Of a stretch of 32,028 nt of DNA, positions 6,046-31,389 are shown one piece after another. Position 1 is the first letter of the stretch. Each line of letters starts with the position of its first letter. The notes below the pieces were generated by a model. The model ran no database searches. It saw nothing but the letters and a program-made list of their open reading frames with translations, and was not told the origin of the DNA. Made by a program: the position numbers and the translations under genes. The DNA comes from Oscillospiraceae bacterium (GTDB taxonomy: Bacteria > Bacillota > Clostridia > Oscillospirales > Oscillospiraceae), in the NCBI GenBank assembly GCA_031270395.1, contig JAISXU010000014.1, positions 1 to 32,028 of the forward strand. Direction: 5' to 3'.

Positions 6046-6143
6046 TATTAATTCGCACGATATGTCGTGCCGAATTAATAGCGCGCATATGAGCGAGAAA
6101 AGTCCCGAGCGGCTTTGCCGTAAGGATTAGCCTTTTCGAGCGG
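6046..6143. repeat. Palindrome plus hairpin module, compact copy
   Basis: Part one is a palindrome, TATTAATTCGCACG (6046-6059) against CGTGCCGAATTAATA (6066-6080). Part two (6081-6143) is GCGCGCATATGAGCGAG, then AAAAGTC, GAGCGGCTTTGCCGTAAGGAT and CTTTTCGAGCGG. Part one recurs at 28945-28979 and part two at 26181-26237 and 28648-28702, both in reverse orientation. Here the two parts are contiguous; at 28647-28980 they are separated by other repeats. The remaining gap 6144-6349 holds no gene or clear signal that I can see. Confidence 0.8.
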
Positions 6144-6349
6144 TGTAGTATTTAGACGACCGTACCGGAGAAAAGTTCCAAAACCAATGAAACCGCGGAC
6201 GAGCCGTGCCCGCCGGCGCCGGTTGTCCCCGGCGGAGCCTGCCGCGCCGCCGCGTCACACAAAGCAAAACCGGTCGCTCGCGTACATGACAATACGCGGG
6301 AAACCGGCAAATCGTTCGTCGCTACTCGCGGTAACCGTCGCGGGACGGG

Positions 6350-7483: not shown

Positions 7484-7607
7484 GCGGATATTCTACCATA
7501 TGGCGCGAAGCGGCTATGGTAGAATGTGTCGTCCCTCGGCGGTTGCCGCGCAGCGGCGAGCCGAGGGGGACATAATGTATAATATCCGCCACGCGGATAT
7601 TCTATCA
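7484..7607. repeat. Hairpin-rich leader bounded by 15-bp direct repeats
   Basis: GCGGATATTCTAYCA occurs at 7484-7498 and 7593-7607 with one mismatch. Between them are a perfect 11-bp inverted repeat, ATTCTACCATA (7490-7500) and TATGGTAGAAT (7515-7525), a long GC-rich hairpin (7531-7571, starting GTCCCTCGGC and ending GCCGAGGGGGAC) and a 9-bp palindrome AATATCCGC/GCGGATATT (7581-7589, 7593-7601). The direct-repeat frame looks like a small insertion with target duplication, or a duplicated promoter element. It would lie in the yajC 5' leader. Confidence 0.7.
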
Positions 7608-7628
7608 CGGGATACCGCCGGCTGTCAA
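7599..7628 (-). promoter_or_regulatory. Sigma-A-like promoter for yajC-proC
   Basis: On the minus strand TTGACA (7623-7628) is followed after 18 bp by TAGAAT (7599-7604). The -10 box overlaps the palindrome AATATCCGC-CAC-GCGGATATT, a plausible operator. The start codon of yajC is about 165 bases downstream, leaving a long structured leader. Confidence 0.7.
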
Positions 7629-24718: not shown

Positions 24719-26149
24719 TTAATGAGTTCCCCCGTCTTTTTCCCCACGCCCGCCGGACGCGCCGTCCGGCGTCTCCGATTCGTAGAGTGCGCGGATACCC
24801 TTGTACACCATGTAGCAGTCGAGTTTCGACACGATCTCGAAGGGCGCGTGCATGGAGAGCACCGGCACGCCCGCGTCAATCGTCTCGATATTTCTGTTCG
24901 CCATGTACATGGCGACCGTCCCGCCGCCGCCCTGATCGACCTTGCCTAGCTCCGTCGTCTGCCACGCAACCGCGTTTGCGTCGAACAGGCGCCGCAAAAA
25001 GCCGACCGTCTCGGCGGACGCGTCGTTTGAGCCGGACTTGCCGCGCGCGCCGGTATATTTCATAACCGCCATGCCGCGGTTGATAAACGCGCTGTTATTC
25101 TTTTCCGAGACATCCGGGAAGCACGGGTCAAAAGCGTTGCACACGTCCGCTGAGATGCAAAACGACCGCGCGAACGTCCTGCCGACGCCGCCCATCCCGC
25201 CGCAAATGTACGACATAAAATCCTCGAACGCCGCCGACTGCATACCCGTCATGCCCTCGGAGCCTATCTCCTCCTTGTCTGTGAGCACGCATACGGCCGT
25301 GCGCTCCGGCTCGCGGGCGTCGAGGATCGCCCTGAGCGCGGCAAACGCGCAGGAGCGGTCGTCGTGCCCGTACGCGGCGATCATCGAATCGTCAAACCCG
25401 AGGTCGCGCGCGCGTCCCGCGGGAACCGCCTCGAGCTCCGCGGACAGGAAATCCTCCTCGATGAGACCGTATCTCTCGTTCAATATGCGCAGCGCGGAGA
25501 GCTTAACGCGGTCGGTCTCCTTTTCCTCACCATCCGGGCGGCTGCCGAGCAGGATGTTCAGATTTTCGCCCGTAAACGCCTCGCCCAGCGTCTTTTTCTC
25601 CTGTTCCTTGCCGAGATGCGGCAGGAGATCGGTTATCATAAATACCGGGTCGCGCTCGTCCTCGCCTATTACGACGTCTATCCGCGAGCCGTCCTTCCTG
25701 ACGACGACTCCGTGCAGCGCGAGCGGCAGCGTCACCCACTGGTACTTTTTTATGCCGCCGTAGTAGTGCGTCTTGAAAAACGCCAGGCCCTCCTCCTCGT
25801 ACAGGGGGGACTGCTTCAAGTCGAGGCGCGGCGAATCGACGTGCGCGGCGGCAATATTCACCCCCTCGGATATGGGCCTTTTGCCGATCACCGCCAGAAA
25901 GACGGTCTTTCCGGCGACCGTCGCATATATTTTTGTCCCGGGGGCGAGCTCCATATCCGGCTCATACCGCATAAACCCCATGCCCTCCGCCAGACTGACC
26001 GCCTCGCGCACCGCCTCGCGCTCCGTCTTTGAGCGGTCGAGGAAGCGTTTGTACTCGCCGGCGTATGCGGACGCCCTCGCGCGGTCGTCCTCGCTTATCG
26101 TGTCGTACGCGTTTTTCTTTTTGAAAAACAATTCCTCTCTGTCCGCCAT
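24719..26149 (-). CDS. M18 family aminopeptidase
   Basis: A 476-residue zinc metallopeptidase that removes N-terminal residues (often acidic) from peptides in the cytosol. The metal-site motifs are AAAHVDSPRLDLK (H103), GHDDRSCAFAAL (D263 or D264), TDKEEIGSEG (E293, E294) and the late SMHAPFE histidine. The first 40 residues are the usual helical lead-in FFKKKNAYDTISEDDRARA, and the length matches the family (430-480). The C-terminus has a Gly/Asp-rich tail (DGASGGRGEKDGGTH) that varies between relatives. The ATG at 26149 is preceded by AAAGGAA at about 12 bases. It is separated from coaE by a repeat element, so co-transcription is possible but not certain. Confidence 0.93.
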   Translation of the reverse strand: MADREELFFKKKNAYDTISEDDRARASAYAGEYKRFLDRSKTEREAVREAVSLAEGMGFMRYEPDMELAPGTKIYATVAGKTVFLAVIGKRPISEGVNIAAAHVDSPRLDLKQSPLYEEEGLAFFKTHYYGGIKKYQWVTLPLALHGVVVRKDGSRIDVVIGEDERDPVFMITDLLPHLGKEQEKKTLGEAFTGENLNILLGSRPDGEEKETDRVKLSALRILNERYGLIEEDFLSAELEAVPAGRARDLGFDDSMIAAYGHDDRSCAFAALRAILDAREPERTAVCVLTDKEEIGSEGMTGMQSAAFEDFMSYICGGMGGVGRTFARSFCISADVCNAFDPCFPDVSEKNNSAFINRGMAVMKYTGARGKSGSNDASAETVGFLRRLFDANAVAWQTTELGKVDQGGGGTVAMYMANRNIETIDAGVPVLSMHAPFEIVSKLDCYMVYKGIRALYESETPDGASGGRGEKDGGTH

Positions 26150-26179
26150 TTTTATGACCGTTCCTTTCCTCTCTTAACA

Positions 26180-26284
26180 ATCCGCTCGAAAAGTCTTATC
26201 CTTACGGCAAAGCCGCTCGGGACTTTTCTCGCTCATGAGCGCATGTTTCTCGCCGCCTATGGCGGCAACCGAAACATATGCGCG
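26180..26284. repeat. Hairpin module plus nested palindrome, intermediate copy
   Basis: The segment 26181-26237 is nearly identical to 28648-28702 (TCCGCTCGAAAAGTCTTATC ... GACTTTTCTCGCTCA). It is followed by a second palindrome, arms GCGCATGTTTC (26239-26249) and GAAACATATGCGC (26271-26283), with an inner GCCGCC-TAT-GGCGGC stem. In the compact copy at 6046-6143 this second palindrome is absent; at 28647-28980 it has been opened by more inserts. The repeat ends exactly at the coaE stop codon. Confidence 0.8.
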
Positions 26285-26926
26285 TCAGCGTGATAAGTCC
26301 GCTATCACGCCCTCGAAAAACTTGGCGCATTTTTTTTCAAACTCTGCCGGGTCGCCGCCGTCGTTTATGAGTATGTGGTCGCAGTTGCGCCGGAAAAACG
26401 TGTCCGAGCGCTGCGCCGCGATGCGCGTCCGAGCGACTGGAGCGCTTATGCCGTCCCTCGCCGTTATGCGAGCCTCCCGCAGCCGCGCGGGGGCGAGCAC
26501 CCCCACGACGACGTCGCATATCTCATGAAGTCCGCTCTCAATCAGCGCGATGGCGTCTATTGCCGCGAGTCTCCCCCCGTCCGCGCTCCAGCGCTCCAGA
26601 CGCCGCCGCACCTCCGCGTCGACGTACTTGTGGGTTATGCCGTTGAGATCCTCCAGCGCCCCGGCGTCGCCGAATACTATGCGTCCGAGCGCCCGCCTGT
26701 CTATTCCGTCCGGCGCCGCCGCCCCGGGGAAGCGTTCCGCGATCTCTCGCCGCAGAGCGGCGTCTCCCGCCAGCAGCTCATGGTAGACCTCGTCGCAGTC
26801 GATCGTCAGCGCTCCCAGTCCGCCGAGCGCCCGCAGAGCCGACGTCTTGCCCGCTCCCGTGCCGCCCGTTATGCCGAAGATCAAAGTCGCGCCCGTGCCC
26901 GCGCCGCCCGCGCGCCGCGCCGTCAT
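26285..26926 (-). CDS. coaE: Dephospho-CoA kinase
   Basis: A 213-residue P-loop kinase that phosphorylates dephospho-CoA in the last step of coenzyme A synthesis. The Walker A is GITGGTGAGKT (18-28), followed by TIDCDEVYHELL (substrate-binding DxD/E region) and by IALIESGLHEICDVVVGVLA. C-terminal DHILINDGG matches the conserved end of the family. The first 12 residues (MTARRAGGAGTG) extend beyond the usual start. The ATG at 26926 overlaps the tsaC stop codon by 4 bases (ATGA), showing translational coupling; a reading 48 codons longer inside tsaC is not credible. Arg/Ala richness reflects high GC. Confidence 0.93.
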   Translation of the reverse strand: MTARRAGGAGTGATLIFGITGGTGAGKTSALRALGGLGALTIDCDEVYHELLAGDAALRREIAERFPGAAAPDGIDRRALGRIVFGDAGALEDLNGITHKYVDAEVRRRLERWSADGGRLAAIDAIALIESGLHEICDVVVGVLAPARLREARITARDGISAPVARTRIAAQRSDTFFRRNCDHILINDGGDPAEFEKKCAKFFEGVIADLSR

Positions 26927-27558
26927 TGCACATGCGCCGCGACGCCCGCCGCGGCCGCGACGTCGCGGAACGCTATCGCGCCGGCCCGCAGCAGCCTGAC
27001 GCCGCCGCTCTCCACGGCCACAACCGTCGATCCCACGCCGACGGCGCAACGGCCCCCGTCCAGCACGCAATCAATCTTGTCCCCGAAATAATCCAAAACG
27101 GCCGCTGCGTCCCTCGGGCTGTCCATGCCCGACGGATTGGCCGACGGCGCCGCCAGCGGCGTCGCCGTCATGCGCAGGAGGCGCAGCGCCACGTCGTGGC
27201 GGGGACATCGCACGCCCACGGCGGCGCCTCCTGCCGTCACGACGTCCGGCACGCAGGCGGCACGGGGAAGCGTCATAGTGAGCGGCCCCGGCCAGAAAGC
27301 CTCCGCGAGCCTTAACGCGGCGCTGGGAACATCGGAGCACACGGCGCGCGCGGCGTCTATATCCGGCACGAGCAGACTCACCGGCTTGTCCGGCGGCCTG
27401 CCCTTCACCTCGAACAGGCGCCTGACCGCCTCCGCGTTGCGCCCGTCGCAGCACAGTCCGTATACCGTCTCCGTAGGTACGGCCACGAGGCCGCCGCGCT
27501 CTATTATCCGGGCGGCGGGCGATATGTCGCCGCCGCGCCCGATCACCGTGACTCCCAT
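26923..27558 (-). CDS. tsaC: Threonylcarbamoyl-AMP synthase
   Basis: A 211-residue YrdC/Sua5-type enzyme that makes threonylcarbamoyl-AMP from threonine, bicarbonate and ATP for the t6A37 modification of ANN-decoding tRNAs. Motifs are VPTETVYGL (27-35), KGRPPDKPVSLLV (52-64), FWPGPLTMTL, and APSANPSGMDSP. It is the short (TsaC/YwlC) form without the Sua5 C-terminal domain. The ATG at 27558 follows the prfA stop codon by a single base, and its own stop overlaps coaE, so it is the middle gene of a tight prfA-tsaC-coaE operon. No clear independent ribosome binding site is visible. Confidence 0.94.
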   Translation of the reverse strand: MGVTVIGRGGDISPAARIIERGGLVAVPTETVYGLCCDGRNAEAVRRLFEVKGRPPDKPVSLLVPDIDAARAVCSDVPSAALRLAEAFWPGPLTMTLPRAACVPDVVTAGGAAVGVRCPRHDVALRLLRMTATPLAAPSANPSGMDSPRDAAAVLDYFGDKIDCVLDGGRCAVGVGSTVVAVESGGVRLLRAGAIAFRDVAAAAGVAAHVQ

Positions 27559-27559
27559 G

Positions 27560-28624
27560 TCAGCCGACCTGTGATAATTTGAGCTTTTCCGCCTGATCCG
27601 CCATGATGAGCGCGTCGATCATCTCGTCGAGATCTCCGTTTAGCATCTGTTCGAGCTTGTACAGCGTCAGGCCGATCCGGTGGTCGGTCACGCGCCCCTG
27701 AGGATAGTTGTACGTGCGTATGCGCTCGGAGCGGTCTCCCGTGCCTACTTGACTCCTGCGCTCGGCGGCGAGGGCCGCGTTTTGTTTTCTCTGCTCGGCC
27801 TCGTAGAGACGGGAGAGCAGTATCTTCATCGCCCTGTCGCGGTTTTTGTACTGGCTGCGCTCGTCCTGACACTCCACTACGGTACCCGTCGGCAGATGCG
27901 TTATGCGTATCGCGGACTCCGTCTTGTTGACGTGCTGGCCGCCCGCCCCGCTGCTGCGAAACGTGTCTATCTGGAGCTCGGAGGGATTGACCTCAAAGTC
28001 AACCTCGTCCACCTCCGGCAGTACCGCTACGGTAACGGTGCTCGTGTGTATCCGTCCCGACGACTCCGTATCCGGAACGCGCTGTACGCGGTGTACGCCG
28101 CTTTCAAATTTCAATCTTGAATACGCCCCGTCGCCCTCGACGACAAAGCTGATCTCCTTGACGCCGCCAAGCTCCGTCGCGTTCACATATGCCGTCTCGG
28201 CGCTCCAGCGCCTCGCTTCAGCGTACATGGAGTACATTCTGAAAAGGCTGTGCGCGAAAAGCGCCGCCTCCTCGCCGCCCGCGCCGCCGCGTATCTCGAT
28301 GATGACGTTCTTTGAGTCGTTCGGATCGCGCGGCAACAGCAGAAGTCTGAGCTCCCCCTCCGCGCGCTCCATAGCGGAGCGCGCCGCGTCGTATTCCTCC
28401 TGCGCGAGCTCCTTGAGATCCGGGTCGGATAACAGCTCCCTCGCGCTCTCGGCGTCCTTTTGCAGCTTTTTCAGTCTGCGGTACGCCTCCGTGACGGGCG
28501 CTATTTCCTTTTGTTCGCGGGCCAGACGCGCGTACAGGGCAGGGTCGCCGTACGATTCCGGCTCCTGCATACGCCTCTCCAGCTCCGAGTATTTCGCGTC
28601 TATCTCCGCAAGCCTTTCGAGCAT
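27560..28624 (-). CDS. prfA: Peptide chain release factor 1
   Basis: A 354-residue class I release factor recognising UAA and UAG. The GGQ catalytic loop is at 228-230 ([14 protein letters not shown]). The stop-codon reading motif is PDT at 184-186 ([14 protein letters not shown]), fitting the RF1 PxT rule rather than the SPF of RF2, although Ala or Val is usual at the middle position. Domain 1 has the expected coiled helices and [15 protein letters not shown]. The ATG at 28624 has AAAGG 9 bases upstream. prmC, the methylase of the GGQ glutamine that often follows prfA in Bacillota, is missing here; tsaC follows directly. Confidence 0.96.
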
Positions 28625-28646
28625 TGGGTACTACCTTTCAATACTA

Positions 28647-28980
28647 ATCCGCTCGAAAAGTCTTATCCTTACGGCAAAGCCGCTCGGGACTTTTCTCGCT
28701 CAAATGCGCATGTTTCTCGCCGCGTCGTCCTCACGGACTACGCTAAGCTCGGAGCGTCGTATACTCCGCTCCTCGCCCGCTCCGTCGTGCGTCCTCTCCG
28801 AAACGAACCCACTTCGTTGGGCTTCGTTTCGGCTTTGGACGGGGGCGCGTAAACGCGAAAGCTCGCTCGCTACGCGGTTCGTCCTCTCCAAAACGCAACC
28901 ATTTCATTGGGTTGCGTTTTGGCTAACGCCGAACATTTGCGCGCTATTAATTCGGCACGACATACCGTGCGAATTAATAT
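28647..28980. repeat. Large nested mosaic of palindromic elements
   Basis: Left to right: the AAAAGTC/GACTTTT hairpin module (28648-28702); GCGCATGTTTCTCGCCGC; a stretch with GTCCTCACGGACTACGCTAAGCTC; hairpin C (28798-28832, CCGAAACGAA...TTCGTTTCGG); TTTGGACGGGG; the small hairpin CGCG-TAAA-CGCG (28846-28857); GCTCGCTCGCTACGCGG; hairpin D (28888-28922, perfect 13-bp stem CCAAAACGCAACC with loop ATTTCATTG); and the palindrome TATTAATTCGGCACG (28945-28979). The outer modules match the compact copy at 6046-6143, so the inner part looks inserted. No gene is visible in the 364-base gap 28625-28988. Confidence 0.85.
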
Positions 28981-28988
28981 TTTGACCA

Positions 28989-30788
28989 TCAGTCGTCCAG
29001 CGTGATCTCTCCCGCGTTCGTGTCGGTCGAGTAGCGCGAGAGGGCTTTCAGCACGTCCTCACTCGCCTGTAATTGGATCAGGCACAGCCGTTCGTACAGA
29101 CCGCCCGACGACACCAGCTCGTCGTGCGTGCCGCGCTCCACGATTTCTCCGTTTTCGATGACGAATATGCAGTCCGCCCTCTTGACGGTCGAGAGCCTAT
29201 GCGCTATGACGAATACAGTCGAGTTGCCCACGAGCGTGGATATTGCCTTTTGTATCTCGGCCTCCGTCTCGACGTCTACGGACGCCGTGGCCTCGTCCAT
29301 GATGAGTATCGGCGCGTCGCGCAGCACGGCGCGCGCTATGGCGACGCGCTGCTTTTGCCCCCCGGAGAGCCGCACGCCGCGTTCGCCTATGACGGTATTA
29401 TAACCGTCCGGGAGCTCGCTTATGAAACCGTCCGCGCACGCTATCCGCGCCGCCGCCCTCACGTCCTCCTCCGACGCGTCGTCCGCGCCGTAGGCGATAT
29501 TCTCGGCGACCGTTCCATTGAACAGAAAAACGTCCTGTAAAATGATAGAGATGTGTCCGCGCAGCGATTTGAGCGTCACGTCCCGTATGTCGTGGCCCCC
29601 GACGAGTACGCGGCCCTCCACCGGGTCGTAAAACCGCTCGATCAGGGATATGAGCGTCGTCTTGCCTACGCCCGTGGGCCCGACGAGCGCTATCATCTTG
29701 CCCGGTTCCGCCCTGAAGCTGATGCTCTTTAATATCGGCTGCTCGGGCTGGTAGTGGAAGCTGACGCTGTCGAATTCAACGCTCCCGTCGCACTCCGACA
29801 TCTCGACCGCGCCGGGTTTATCGACTATCTCCTCATACGCGTCAAGTATCTCGACGACGCGCTTCGCGCCCGCCCGCGCGGTCTGTATATCCTCCGTGAG
29901 CCGCGCCAGCGTGGCTATCGGCTGGTAGTATAAGCTGAGATAGAGCACAAAGCCCATTATCTCCGCGCCCGTCATCTCGCCGCGCAGCGCCAGATATCCG
30001 CCTCCCGCTATGACGAATATCGTGCCGAGAGACGTCAGCAGCTCGATAAAAGGCGTGAACAGACTCGTGTTCAGGCTCCACTTGATATTCCCCTCGGAAT
30101 ATTTCTTGTCGATTTCGCTTATTTTGCGGAGCTCGCGCTCCTCCTGACAGAACGCCTGTATTTCCTTGATGCCGGACAGATTATCCTGCAGCGAGCCGTT
30201 GAGGTCGCCGAGCAGCTTCATGTTGGCGCCTATTATCGGGCCAACGCGCTTCATGAATATCTTGCTGGATATGACGATCAGCGGTATCGGCACGACGGTG
30301 AGCGCGGCTATGCGGGGATTGATCGTAAACAGCACGCCCGTTACAAGTATGACTATGACTATGCTCGACATCAGATCAGGCAGCGAGTGCGCGAACAGCA
30401 CTTCCATCTGGCGGGCGTCGTTCACCGCCCGGCTCATGAGCTCTCCCGTCTGGCGGTCGTGATAGAATCTCATCGACAGCCGCTGCAGCTTTGCGTAGAT
30501 GAGGTCCGTCAGCCACGGGACGAAACGCCACGCGCATATGTGCGATATATAGAAGCTGAGAAATTTGCACACCGCCCGCGCAACGAACGTCGCGCTCAGC
30601 GTGACGGAAAATGTCACGACGGCGGTCATGTCGAATCCGTCGCCGGAGCCGATAAGCGCCATCAGGCGGGATATGAGGAGCGGCGTGGCGAGCGTGAGTA
30701 TGGCGGCAATCAGCACGAGAATGAATGAGAAAACAATGGCGCCCCAGTATTTGCGCGCCAGCTTTATCATGTACAGTATTGAATCCAT
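28989..30788 (-). CDS. ABC exporter, fused permease and ATPase (MsbA/LmrA-like half transporter)
   Basis: A 599-residue half transporter that would work as a dimer in the cytoplasmic membrane. Residues 1-310 hold six predicted transmembrane helices (first spans IVFSFILVLIAAILTLATP) with the RLSMRFYHDRQTGELMSRAVND coupling region around 95-115. The ATPase follows: Walker A GPTGVGKTTLI (about 372-382), signature LSGGQKQR (about 476-483), Walker B ILIMDEATASVD and the switch AHRLSTVK. The substrate is unknown; multidrug or lipid export is typical. The ATG at 30788 has GGAG 6 bases upstream and starts 3 bases after the HPr gene, so the two are cotranscribed. No second half transporter is adjacent, suggesting a homodimer. 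Confidence 0.93.
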   Translation of the reverse strand: MDSILYMIKLARKYWGAIVFSFILVLIAAILTLATPLLISRLMALIGSGDGFDMTAVVTFSVTLSATFVARAVCKFLSFYISHICAWRFVPWLTDLIYAKLQRLSMRFYHDRQTGELMSRAVNDARQMEVLFAHSLPDLMSSIVIVILVTGVLFTINPRIAALTVVPIPLIVISSKIFMKRVGPIIGANMKLLGDLNGSLQDNLSGIKEIQAFCQEERELRKISEIDKKYSEGNIKWSLNTSLFTPFIELLTSLGTIFVIAGGGYLALRGEMTGAEIMGFVLYLSLYYQPIATLARLTEDIQTARAGAKRVVEILDAYEEIVDKPGAVEMSECDGSVEFDSVSFHYQPEQPILKSISFRAEPGKMIALVGPTGVGKTTLISLIERFYDPVEGRVLVGGHDIRDVTLKSLRGHISIILQDVFLFNGTVAENIAYGADDASEEDVRAAARIACADGFISELPDGYNTVIGERGVRLSGGQKQRVAIARAVLRDAPILIMDEATASVDVETEAEIQKAISTLVGNSTVFVIAHRLSTVKRADCIFVIENGEIVERGTHDELVSSGGLYERLCLIQLQASEDVLKALSRYSTDTNAGEITLDD

Positions 30789-31249: not shown

Positions 31250-31389
31250 CCAAAACCGAAACGCAACCCAATGAAATGGTTGCGTTTTGGAGAGGAGGAG
31301 CCCCGTAGCGAGCGAGCTTTCGGCTTTAGCCGGAAGCGAGTCTTAGCGGAAGGGTGCTCCGACGAAGCGCAGTCCGTGTGGACGAGCCG
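31250..31389. repeat. Mosaic palindromic element, inverted copy E
   Basis: Reverse orientation of copy B (752-876). The long hairpin at 31256-31290 has arms CCGAAACGCAACC and GGTTGCGTTTTGG. It is followed by AGAGGAGGAGCCCCGTAGCGAG, a small hairpin CGGCT-TT-AGCCG (31321-31332) in the place of CGCG-TAAA-CGCG, then GCGAGTCTTAGCGG and a GTCCGTGTGGACGAG end. On the plus strand the peptide PKRNPMKWLRFGEEEPRSE is read through the hairpin. Confidence 0.8.

Follow-up and report, generated by a model that had tools for sequence, protein, structure and literature searches.

REP sequences and BIMEs, with their RAYT proteins, are dispersed extragenic hairpins. BOX and other small modular repeats were recognised decades ago and, to our knowledge, their mover has not been identified. 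In the streptococci, BOX elements are described as boxA-boxB-boxC composites, with the boxA/C and boxE/F ends of S. suis set around the same boxB, and as having terminal inverted repeats and making target duplications (PMC3049150). MITEs, for example ERIC and Correia, are characterized as small, mostly intergenic, folded elements that act on neighbouring genes (PMC10969869). Template switching during replication has been put forward as a process that forms hairpin stems and lengthens them (PMC8794818), and in phage T4 genes 38 and 25 intervening structure is reported to make the spacing of ribosome-binding site and start codon workable (PMC3014915).

Here we describe a family of folded repeats from an Oscillospiraceae genome, starting from a 32,028-nt stretch (the window; contig JAISXU010000014.1 of assembly GCA_031270395.1, positions 1 to 32,028; 58% GC). 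We consider it probable that one set of these repeats, F1, is a small non-autonomous mobile element made up of three hairpins, A-E-B, that it has recently multiplied, that hairpin E is the part recognised, that the outer hairpins can be rebuilt, and that its targets are A/T-rich. The interesting part of the finding is the wider family built around E, a subfamily placed before start codons (F3), and hairpin arms that mirror the flanking DNA. In the literature that we consulted, mainly outside subscription journals (titles and abstract starts), no element of this kind is described, which leaves its absence from print unproven.

The F1 unit and its copies

Three module arrangements had been reported in the initial annotation, at 6046, 26180 and 28647, and re-reading of the exact positions confirmed that all three are real and lie at those places. 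The filled copy (28647–28980, plus strand) is intergenic; its neighbours, both assigned by Pfam, are a release-factor-1 gene (prfA type, start 28624, minus strand) and an ABC transporter gene (ending at 28989, minus strand). The copy begins with the A hairpin core GAAAAGTC..ACGGCAAAGCCG..GACTTTTC (28654–28695) and continues through the left half of hairpin E (28705–28723), a repeat block of about 200 bp on the loop side of E that corresponds to the previously named hairpins C and D (28724 to about 28924), the right half of E (28925–28944) and the B hairpin TATTAATTCGGCACG..CGTGCGAATTAATA (28945–28979). A second copy (26180–26284, plus strand), next to an M18 aminopeptidase gene (24719–26149, minus strand; Pfam), consists of A (core 26187–26228) and the palindrome E (26239–26283) and has no B. 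The third (6046–6152, minus strand) is compact and without E, with B (6046–6080) joined to A (6097–6138) through a remnant, GCGCGCATATGAGCGAG (6081–6097). The F1 copies of the window are, respectively, a filled form, a B-less form and a deletion form. A terminator scan of 26000–29200 gave four terminator-like sites against 3.1 expected, none of them within either F1 copy of that region, and a weak promoter-like site (26174–26202; 9 of 12) overlaps the copy at 26180.

The standard unit is A-E-B, about 150 bp long, with left end (TATTA)ATCCGCTCG, hairpin E in the form GCGCATGTTTCTCGCCGCC-TAT-GGCGGCAACCGAAACATATGCGC, and hairpin B terminating in CGAATTAATA; this right end and the left end, TATTAATCCG, are partly inverted. 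A representative copy folds better than its dinucleotide shuffles by 6.1 SD as RNA and 6.8 SD as DNA. A 42-nt A pattern, allowed up to three mismatches, was found at 53 places in the genome that contains the window and its reversed counterpart at none, a result that rules out chance. Among these places 31 matched perfectly, 19 with one mismatch, three with two and none with three, a sharp distribution that points to recent multiplication or strong homogenisation. Full-length searches of the same genome returned at least 64 matches for positions 28640–28990, many of them partial, and at least 78 for the compact query; each scored its best 40 candidates, and copy numbers are therefore taken from the pattern searches.

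We examined all 53 copies together with their flanks. They lie mostly in spacers, and many are at contig ends, as expected of repeats, which break assemblies. E is intact in 42, carries the C/D block in nine and is missing from two. The 42 intact copies continue into B in 26 cases, run to a contig end in 10, lack a standard B in four (a class that includes L085, whose B is a variant) and are followed by another A in two. No target duplication of constant length was found in the F1 copies; L085 has a possible direct repeat of about 10 bp. This copy (contig C66, minus strand) has an altered B hairpin; the outer bases of that hairpin, AATTATTAC, agree with the left flank of the copy, as if B had been rebuilt from the target. 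At L076 (contig C45, minus strand), B is a hybrid of the left end TACTAATCCGCTCG and the right arm of B, as would be expected from a deletion inside a tandem pair.

A conserved core hairpin

An exact 25-nt piece of A occurs in six stretches of the species genome collection, five in WRGW01 (Oscillospiraceae MAG Nt197P1bin1) and one in JAISFB01 (Gx485_bin225). These copies are also A-E-B, with stems that differ and still pair. RNAalifold, given 17 sequences (10 from the genome of the window), predicted three hairpins with both-side changes in 20 of 45 pairs. Run over 300 genomes of the family, a covariance model matched 19, the source genome included, distributed over 18 of 106 genera; copy counts from this model are lower bounds, the best 10 candidates being considered per genome. 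In 32 model-found copies the left and right hairpins vary freely, whereas in E CTC lies across from AACCG in 29; the remaining copies, L071, L122 and L159, each have a single changed base in CTC.

The architecture of E comprises an outer stem, a 2-nt bulge (usually AT), a middle stem, a TC/AACC internal loop and an inner stem. We aligned 39 E hairpins from 46 rows, dropping L163:1243-1294 and L178:1612-1657, which are not E hairpins, and five near-duplicates. Paired cells make up 96.4% of this alignment, both partners have changed in 14 of 15 pairs, and covariation scores 0.651, compared with 0.169 for shuffles and about 0.1 with slid partners. These values are to be read with the row selection in mind, since the search pattern dictated the letters of CTC and AACCG, and the rows came from a selection for pairing (the inner four pairs plus at least four of the five pairs beside the internal loop). 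The columns free of this filter, 5–9 and 21, covary too, the five outermost, unfiltered pairs having both sides changed in 11, 15, 2, 18 and 3 cells. The pairing of E has thus been shown to be kept by compensatory change across genera, and E is common to at least three subfamilies here.

The E pattern CTCGCC-N3..13-GGCAACCG, searched in 400 genomes of the family, matched the source genome 90 times against once for the control. High counts relative to control were also found in G289 (37 against 1), G074 (32 against 1), G031 (29 against 2), G353 (18 against 0) and G279 (18 against 0); at least one match was present in 195 of the 400 genomes, much of this by chance, and most other genomes were near the control level. 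In a further genome, G383, eight copies of another E element (L287–L294) have nearly identical right parts, and in L289, L290 and L291, at least, the left part is absent or different; this set is a second young expansion within the family. The sole IMG/VR match to the A pattern agrees with WRGW01000054 in length and carries both of its copies. Carriage by phages or plasmids was considered and rejected: the type II E pattern occurs in none of the viral contigs, and a type II copy compared with plasmid and phage records gave no match in either.

Two further subfamilies in the same genome

The 90 E cores of the source genome comprise F1 and at least two more sets, F2 and F3, with different outer hairpins. 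The F2 elements have outer hairpins based on TGGTATAAT/ATTATACCA and have formed arrays, three of which (L251, L262 and L279) contain two E cores. One F2 element lies in the window, between HSP90 (htpG-type) and YajC genes identified by Pfam (7490–7608, minus strand; L 7577–7608, E 7528–7571, R 7490–7525), with an E core as in F1. A TTGACA stands upstream of it at 7623–7628 (minus strand), 18 nt before its TAGAAT. Across the set, a −35 box (five or six of six bases) is rightly spaced upstream in five of 22 F2 units compared with 1.9% of control positions; 22 of 23 units were scored, three of them second units of arrays. A lone F2-type left hairpin, TATAATATCCGCAGAGCGGATATTATAC, was observed behind TTGACA and without E at L249 (contig C11, 1–600), and may possibly represent the n = 0 state of arrays of the form L(E-R-L)n.

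The F3 elements have the form AAGGTTGAAACAAGTTCAACCTT .. GGCATGGTCATAA. The set numbers 17 copies, from which L249, whose left end is off the contig, and L284, whose left hairpin is altered, were set aside, and L254 and L255 are without a right end. In 11 of 13 copies a start codon (10 ATG, one TTG) follows the right end at a distance of exactly 2 nt, the other two having none at this position. In 10 of the 11 cases no stop codon interrupts the following frame before the fetched piece ends; the remaining frame closes after 76 codons. We compared 10 of the 11 downstream proteins with Pfam, leaving out L285, and obtained matches for eight, one of which (flavodoxin) was under the curated cut-off; the proteins are diverse and include a cytidylate kinase, a UvrD-type helicase and PTAC. 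In seven of 11 copies the 16 nt to the left of the element contain a strict ribosome-binding motif, as against 16.6% of control windows (p 6e-4); the other four copies lack it at this position. One F3 element, L276 (C74:44839, minus strand), stands directly before a gene of the CfrBI restriction endonuclease family (PF09516, E 3.8e-18). Orienting F2, F3 and the elements of G289 and G383 by the longest open frame was also tried and discarded, as the signs were mixed and disagreed with the F3 start codons; the measure was left unused because in a GC-rich genome the antisense strand frequently contains open frames.

Empty sites in a congener

The suggestion that the elements may be mobile was borne out by comparison with a congener, G001, which shares 80–88% identity with the source genome (G000) over the longer matches and has kept the gene order. 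At the 28647 locus G001 has 29 bp where the window has 368 bp, and at a second F1 locus, C46:49768, it has 20 bp against 150. F1 is therefore an insertion, at least at these two clean sites. At C74:51862, where the F3 copy of the source genome lies upstream of the ribosome-binding site, G001 has 55 bp against 189 bp. The comparisons at 26180, where G001 has 63 bp of different sequence, and at the F3 locus C46:55999, where it has 139 bp of other sequence against 157 and the start codon is unchanged, are weaker, since G001 carries other sequence in the element's place.

The comparisons cover three F1 and two F3 loci and one congener. Four further loci were unreadable in G001, namely F1 copies at C46:53857 and C46:58390 (flanks on different contigs) and at C74:60486 (contig end), and the F3 copy at C74:44839 (unspanned). 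A search of G001 gave no F1 match, and F3-type matches are present elsewhere in that genome. G002 (63% complete) gave a single weak 27-bp match (E 3.3e-4) which, on reading, is not F1.

Mirrored flanks and a possible mechanism

In F3 the sequence behind the left hairpin tends to repeat, in inverse orientation, that element's own flank, the summed matching run being 57 compared with 40.4 expected and equalled in none of 20,000 permutations (n = 15). A similar feature appears in G289, where seven of eight copies have a copy-specific left hairpin of 14–20 pairs. In five of these eight copies an upstream frame of 110 codons or more has its stop codon in the outer arm or loop, and the inner arm is the mirror copy; here the outer arm was recognised as native flank by reading frames rather than by an empty site. 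Among 17 G001 loci read, which included one F3 core, the F3 copy has seven mirrored bases. Most F1 copies are without mirrored arms, and any rebuilding at insertion is thus not general.

These features can be accommodated by a mechanism in which E, as a folded single strand, would be the part recognised by a putative moving machinery, while the outer hairpins would be replaceable end structures that the element could form anew at its target, through fold-back copying (template switching) of the flank. The notion of rebuilding comes from F3 and several G289 copies, in which the arm on the E side is the inverse of the outer arm, that is, of the flank. Insertion would be directed to short A/T-rich spots in spacers, with a weak preference for TATTA in F1 and for AA two bases before start codons in F3. 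In mRNA the element may fold itself out, such that an insertion between the ribosome-binding site and the start codon would be tolerable. Taken to its full extent, the E hairpin would define a new class of mobile element, probably of the Oscillospiraceae, that moves as a folded strand, copies its flanks inversely into its outer hairpins and clamps itself out of mRNA, so that F3 could seek out the interval separating the ribosome-binding site from the start codon and yet leave the gene expressed; we put this forward tentatively, as a rather unlikely proposition in its entirety.

The mirrored arms might instead arise after insertion, through ordinary template-switch mutation of imperfect palindromes, a process that has been proposed to make hairpin stems (PMC8794818). 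We give this only slightly less than an even chance. It has to account for copy-specific hairpins in seven of eight G289 copies and frame ends in five of eight, as well as for the seven mirrored bases of the F3 copy in G001, and this extent of mirroring is a lot for a secondary process.

The repeat block within hairpin E

The initial annotation had read the C/D block as an insertion into the palindrome, and here the paralogues agree, since 42 of the 53 are unfilled and nine are filled. The C/D repeats are a separate repeat family, tandem and dispersed, found also at 334–414, 771–883 and 31250–31348 of the window. Repeats of this type are numerous in G001 and present in G002, for which reason C/D is probably older than F1 in the genus. 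Among the nine filled copies, the right junction of the block, TTTTGGCTAACGCCGAA, is identical in all six in which it can be read, at different loci; in the ninth, L081, it has been lost. The left junction has two forms, one of which keeps the tip of E (L073, L088 and L096) and looks ancestral to the tip-less form. The common right junction of the readable copies indicates one insertion followed by spread.

How the filled form spread is a separate question. Gene conversion among F1 copies, as opposed to the multiplication of one composite element, would fit both the uniformity of the right junction (six of six) and the abundance of C/D repeats. We regard it as possible though improbable, because the flanks differ between filled copies and because G001 has no F1 of any form at the 28647 locus, so that the element and its filling may both be recent there.

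Alternative explanations of the family

One candidate for the mover of F1 and its relatives is a Y1 (RAYT/TnpA) transposase of the host, which would make them REP/BIME-type or IS200/IS605-derived elements. Hairpin ends, the lack of a constant target duplication and a short A/T-rich target beside one end would all be in keeping with this, a target of that kind being reminiscent of single-stranded DNA transposition. Nevertheless, PF01797 (Y1/RAYT), the sole profile searched, gave no match in the source genome, which is 88.7% complete; across genomes a Y1 match occurs in six of 19 that carry the element compared with 124 of 300 overall, and 5 of the 14 control genomes also gave a signal. The search for a RAYT proposed alongside the first description of these repeats was therefore negative, the presence of Y1 does not track the element, and we reject Y1/RAYT as the mover, the chance that it is involved being very small.

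Similarly improbable is a regulatory leader RNA without mobility, whether riboswitch-like or protein-binding, retained ahead of a regulon. The strong covariation of E, the placement of F3 in ribosome-binding regions and the occurrence of some F2 copies at promoters (five of the 22 scored units) would all be expected of such an RNA. Against it, the downstream genes are unrelated, near-identical copies lie at unrelated loci, and G001 has empty sites. In addition, F1 copies mostly run against the reading direction of their A-side neighbour (30 compared with 12; two-sided p 0.008), a count based on crude codon-usage gene calls from which seven of the 53 copies were set aside as overlapping a call and in which four of the remaining 46 have no A-side neighbour. 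Nor does an Rfam family correspond to these elements: Rfam 15 gave no match above a family's gathering cut-off, either for the window or for 16 loci with diverged copies, and one hit that was obtained (E 4.6) lay below threshold.

Also very improbable is the order of events first proposed, in which a compact A-B gave rise to A-E-B by insertion of E and then received C/D within E: compact copies do exist (two of 53), and CATATGCGC stands on both sides of E in some copies and could be read as a target duplication, but A-E-B is the majority form of the source genome and is present in WRGW01, JAISFB01 and G037, the last of another genus, and E is the part common to the wider family. The majority and its occurrence in other genomes make the compact copy at 6046 a deletion product; this reversal concerns the E step only and corrects an insertion order that had been suggested by sequence alone. 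A deletion origin of the compact copy is an outcome that the initial annotation had itself named as speaking against its proposal. In both compact copies (6046 and L095) E is missing between 9-bp direct repeats, CATATGCGC, and its loss between these repeats would explain them. Since the two differ at other bases, they are likely to be separate losses.

Comparison with known systems

The cross-genus core, the young copies, the empty sites in G001 and the presence of several subfamilies in one genome turn the question of the mover into a testable one. It can now be asked what recognises the E hairpin, be it protein or RNA, and how the target yields the outer arms. Because F3 ends two bases before start codons, it also constitutes a natural experiment on the structure that translation initiation tolerates.

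The hairpins made by template switching, as presented in PMC8794818, resemble the mirrored arms in having one arm that repeats the other inversely, and differ in that here the feature is tied to a mobile element and to the flanks of its target. For the proposed folding-out of F3, T4 genes 38 and 25 provide a precedent, with the distinction that their reported spacings are 22 and 27 nt (PMC3014915) whereas F3 has three hairpins and inserts well over 100 nt. Like MITEs such as ERIC and Correia, as characterized in PMC10969869, the F1 family is small, mostly intergenic and folded; in contrast to them, no terminal inverted repeat tied to a known transposase and no constant target duplication were found here. 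With REP sequences and BIMEs it shares the dispersed extragenic hairpins, while its three-hairpin unit is much longer and no Y1 transposase is found in the genome or tracks the family.

The F1 family is built like BOX, a likeness of architecture, and we do not identify it as BOX. Both, going by the description in PMC3049150, are modular, small, folded and present in many copies, with repeat families nested in one another. In both the core can be absent, single or in tandem, as seen here in A-E-B, A-B (two of 53), A-E followed by A (two of 53) and the F2 arrays with two E cores, and in both one core occurs between different ends in a single genome, as E does in F1, F2 and F3. Compared with BOX as outlined in that source, the ends of F1 are partly inverted and no target duplication of constant length was found with them. 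The E core differs in being one hairpin with a conserved internal loop, some of the outer hairpins mirror the flank of their target, and F3 stands directly before start codons.
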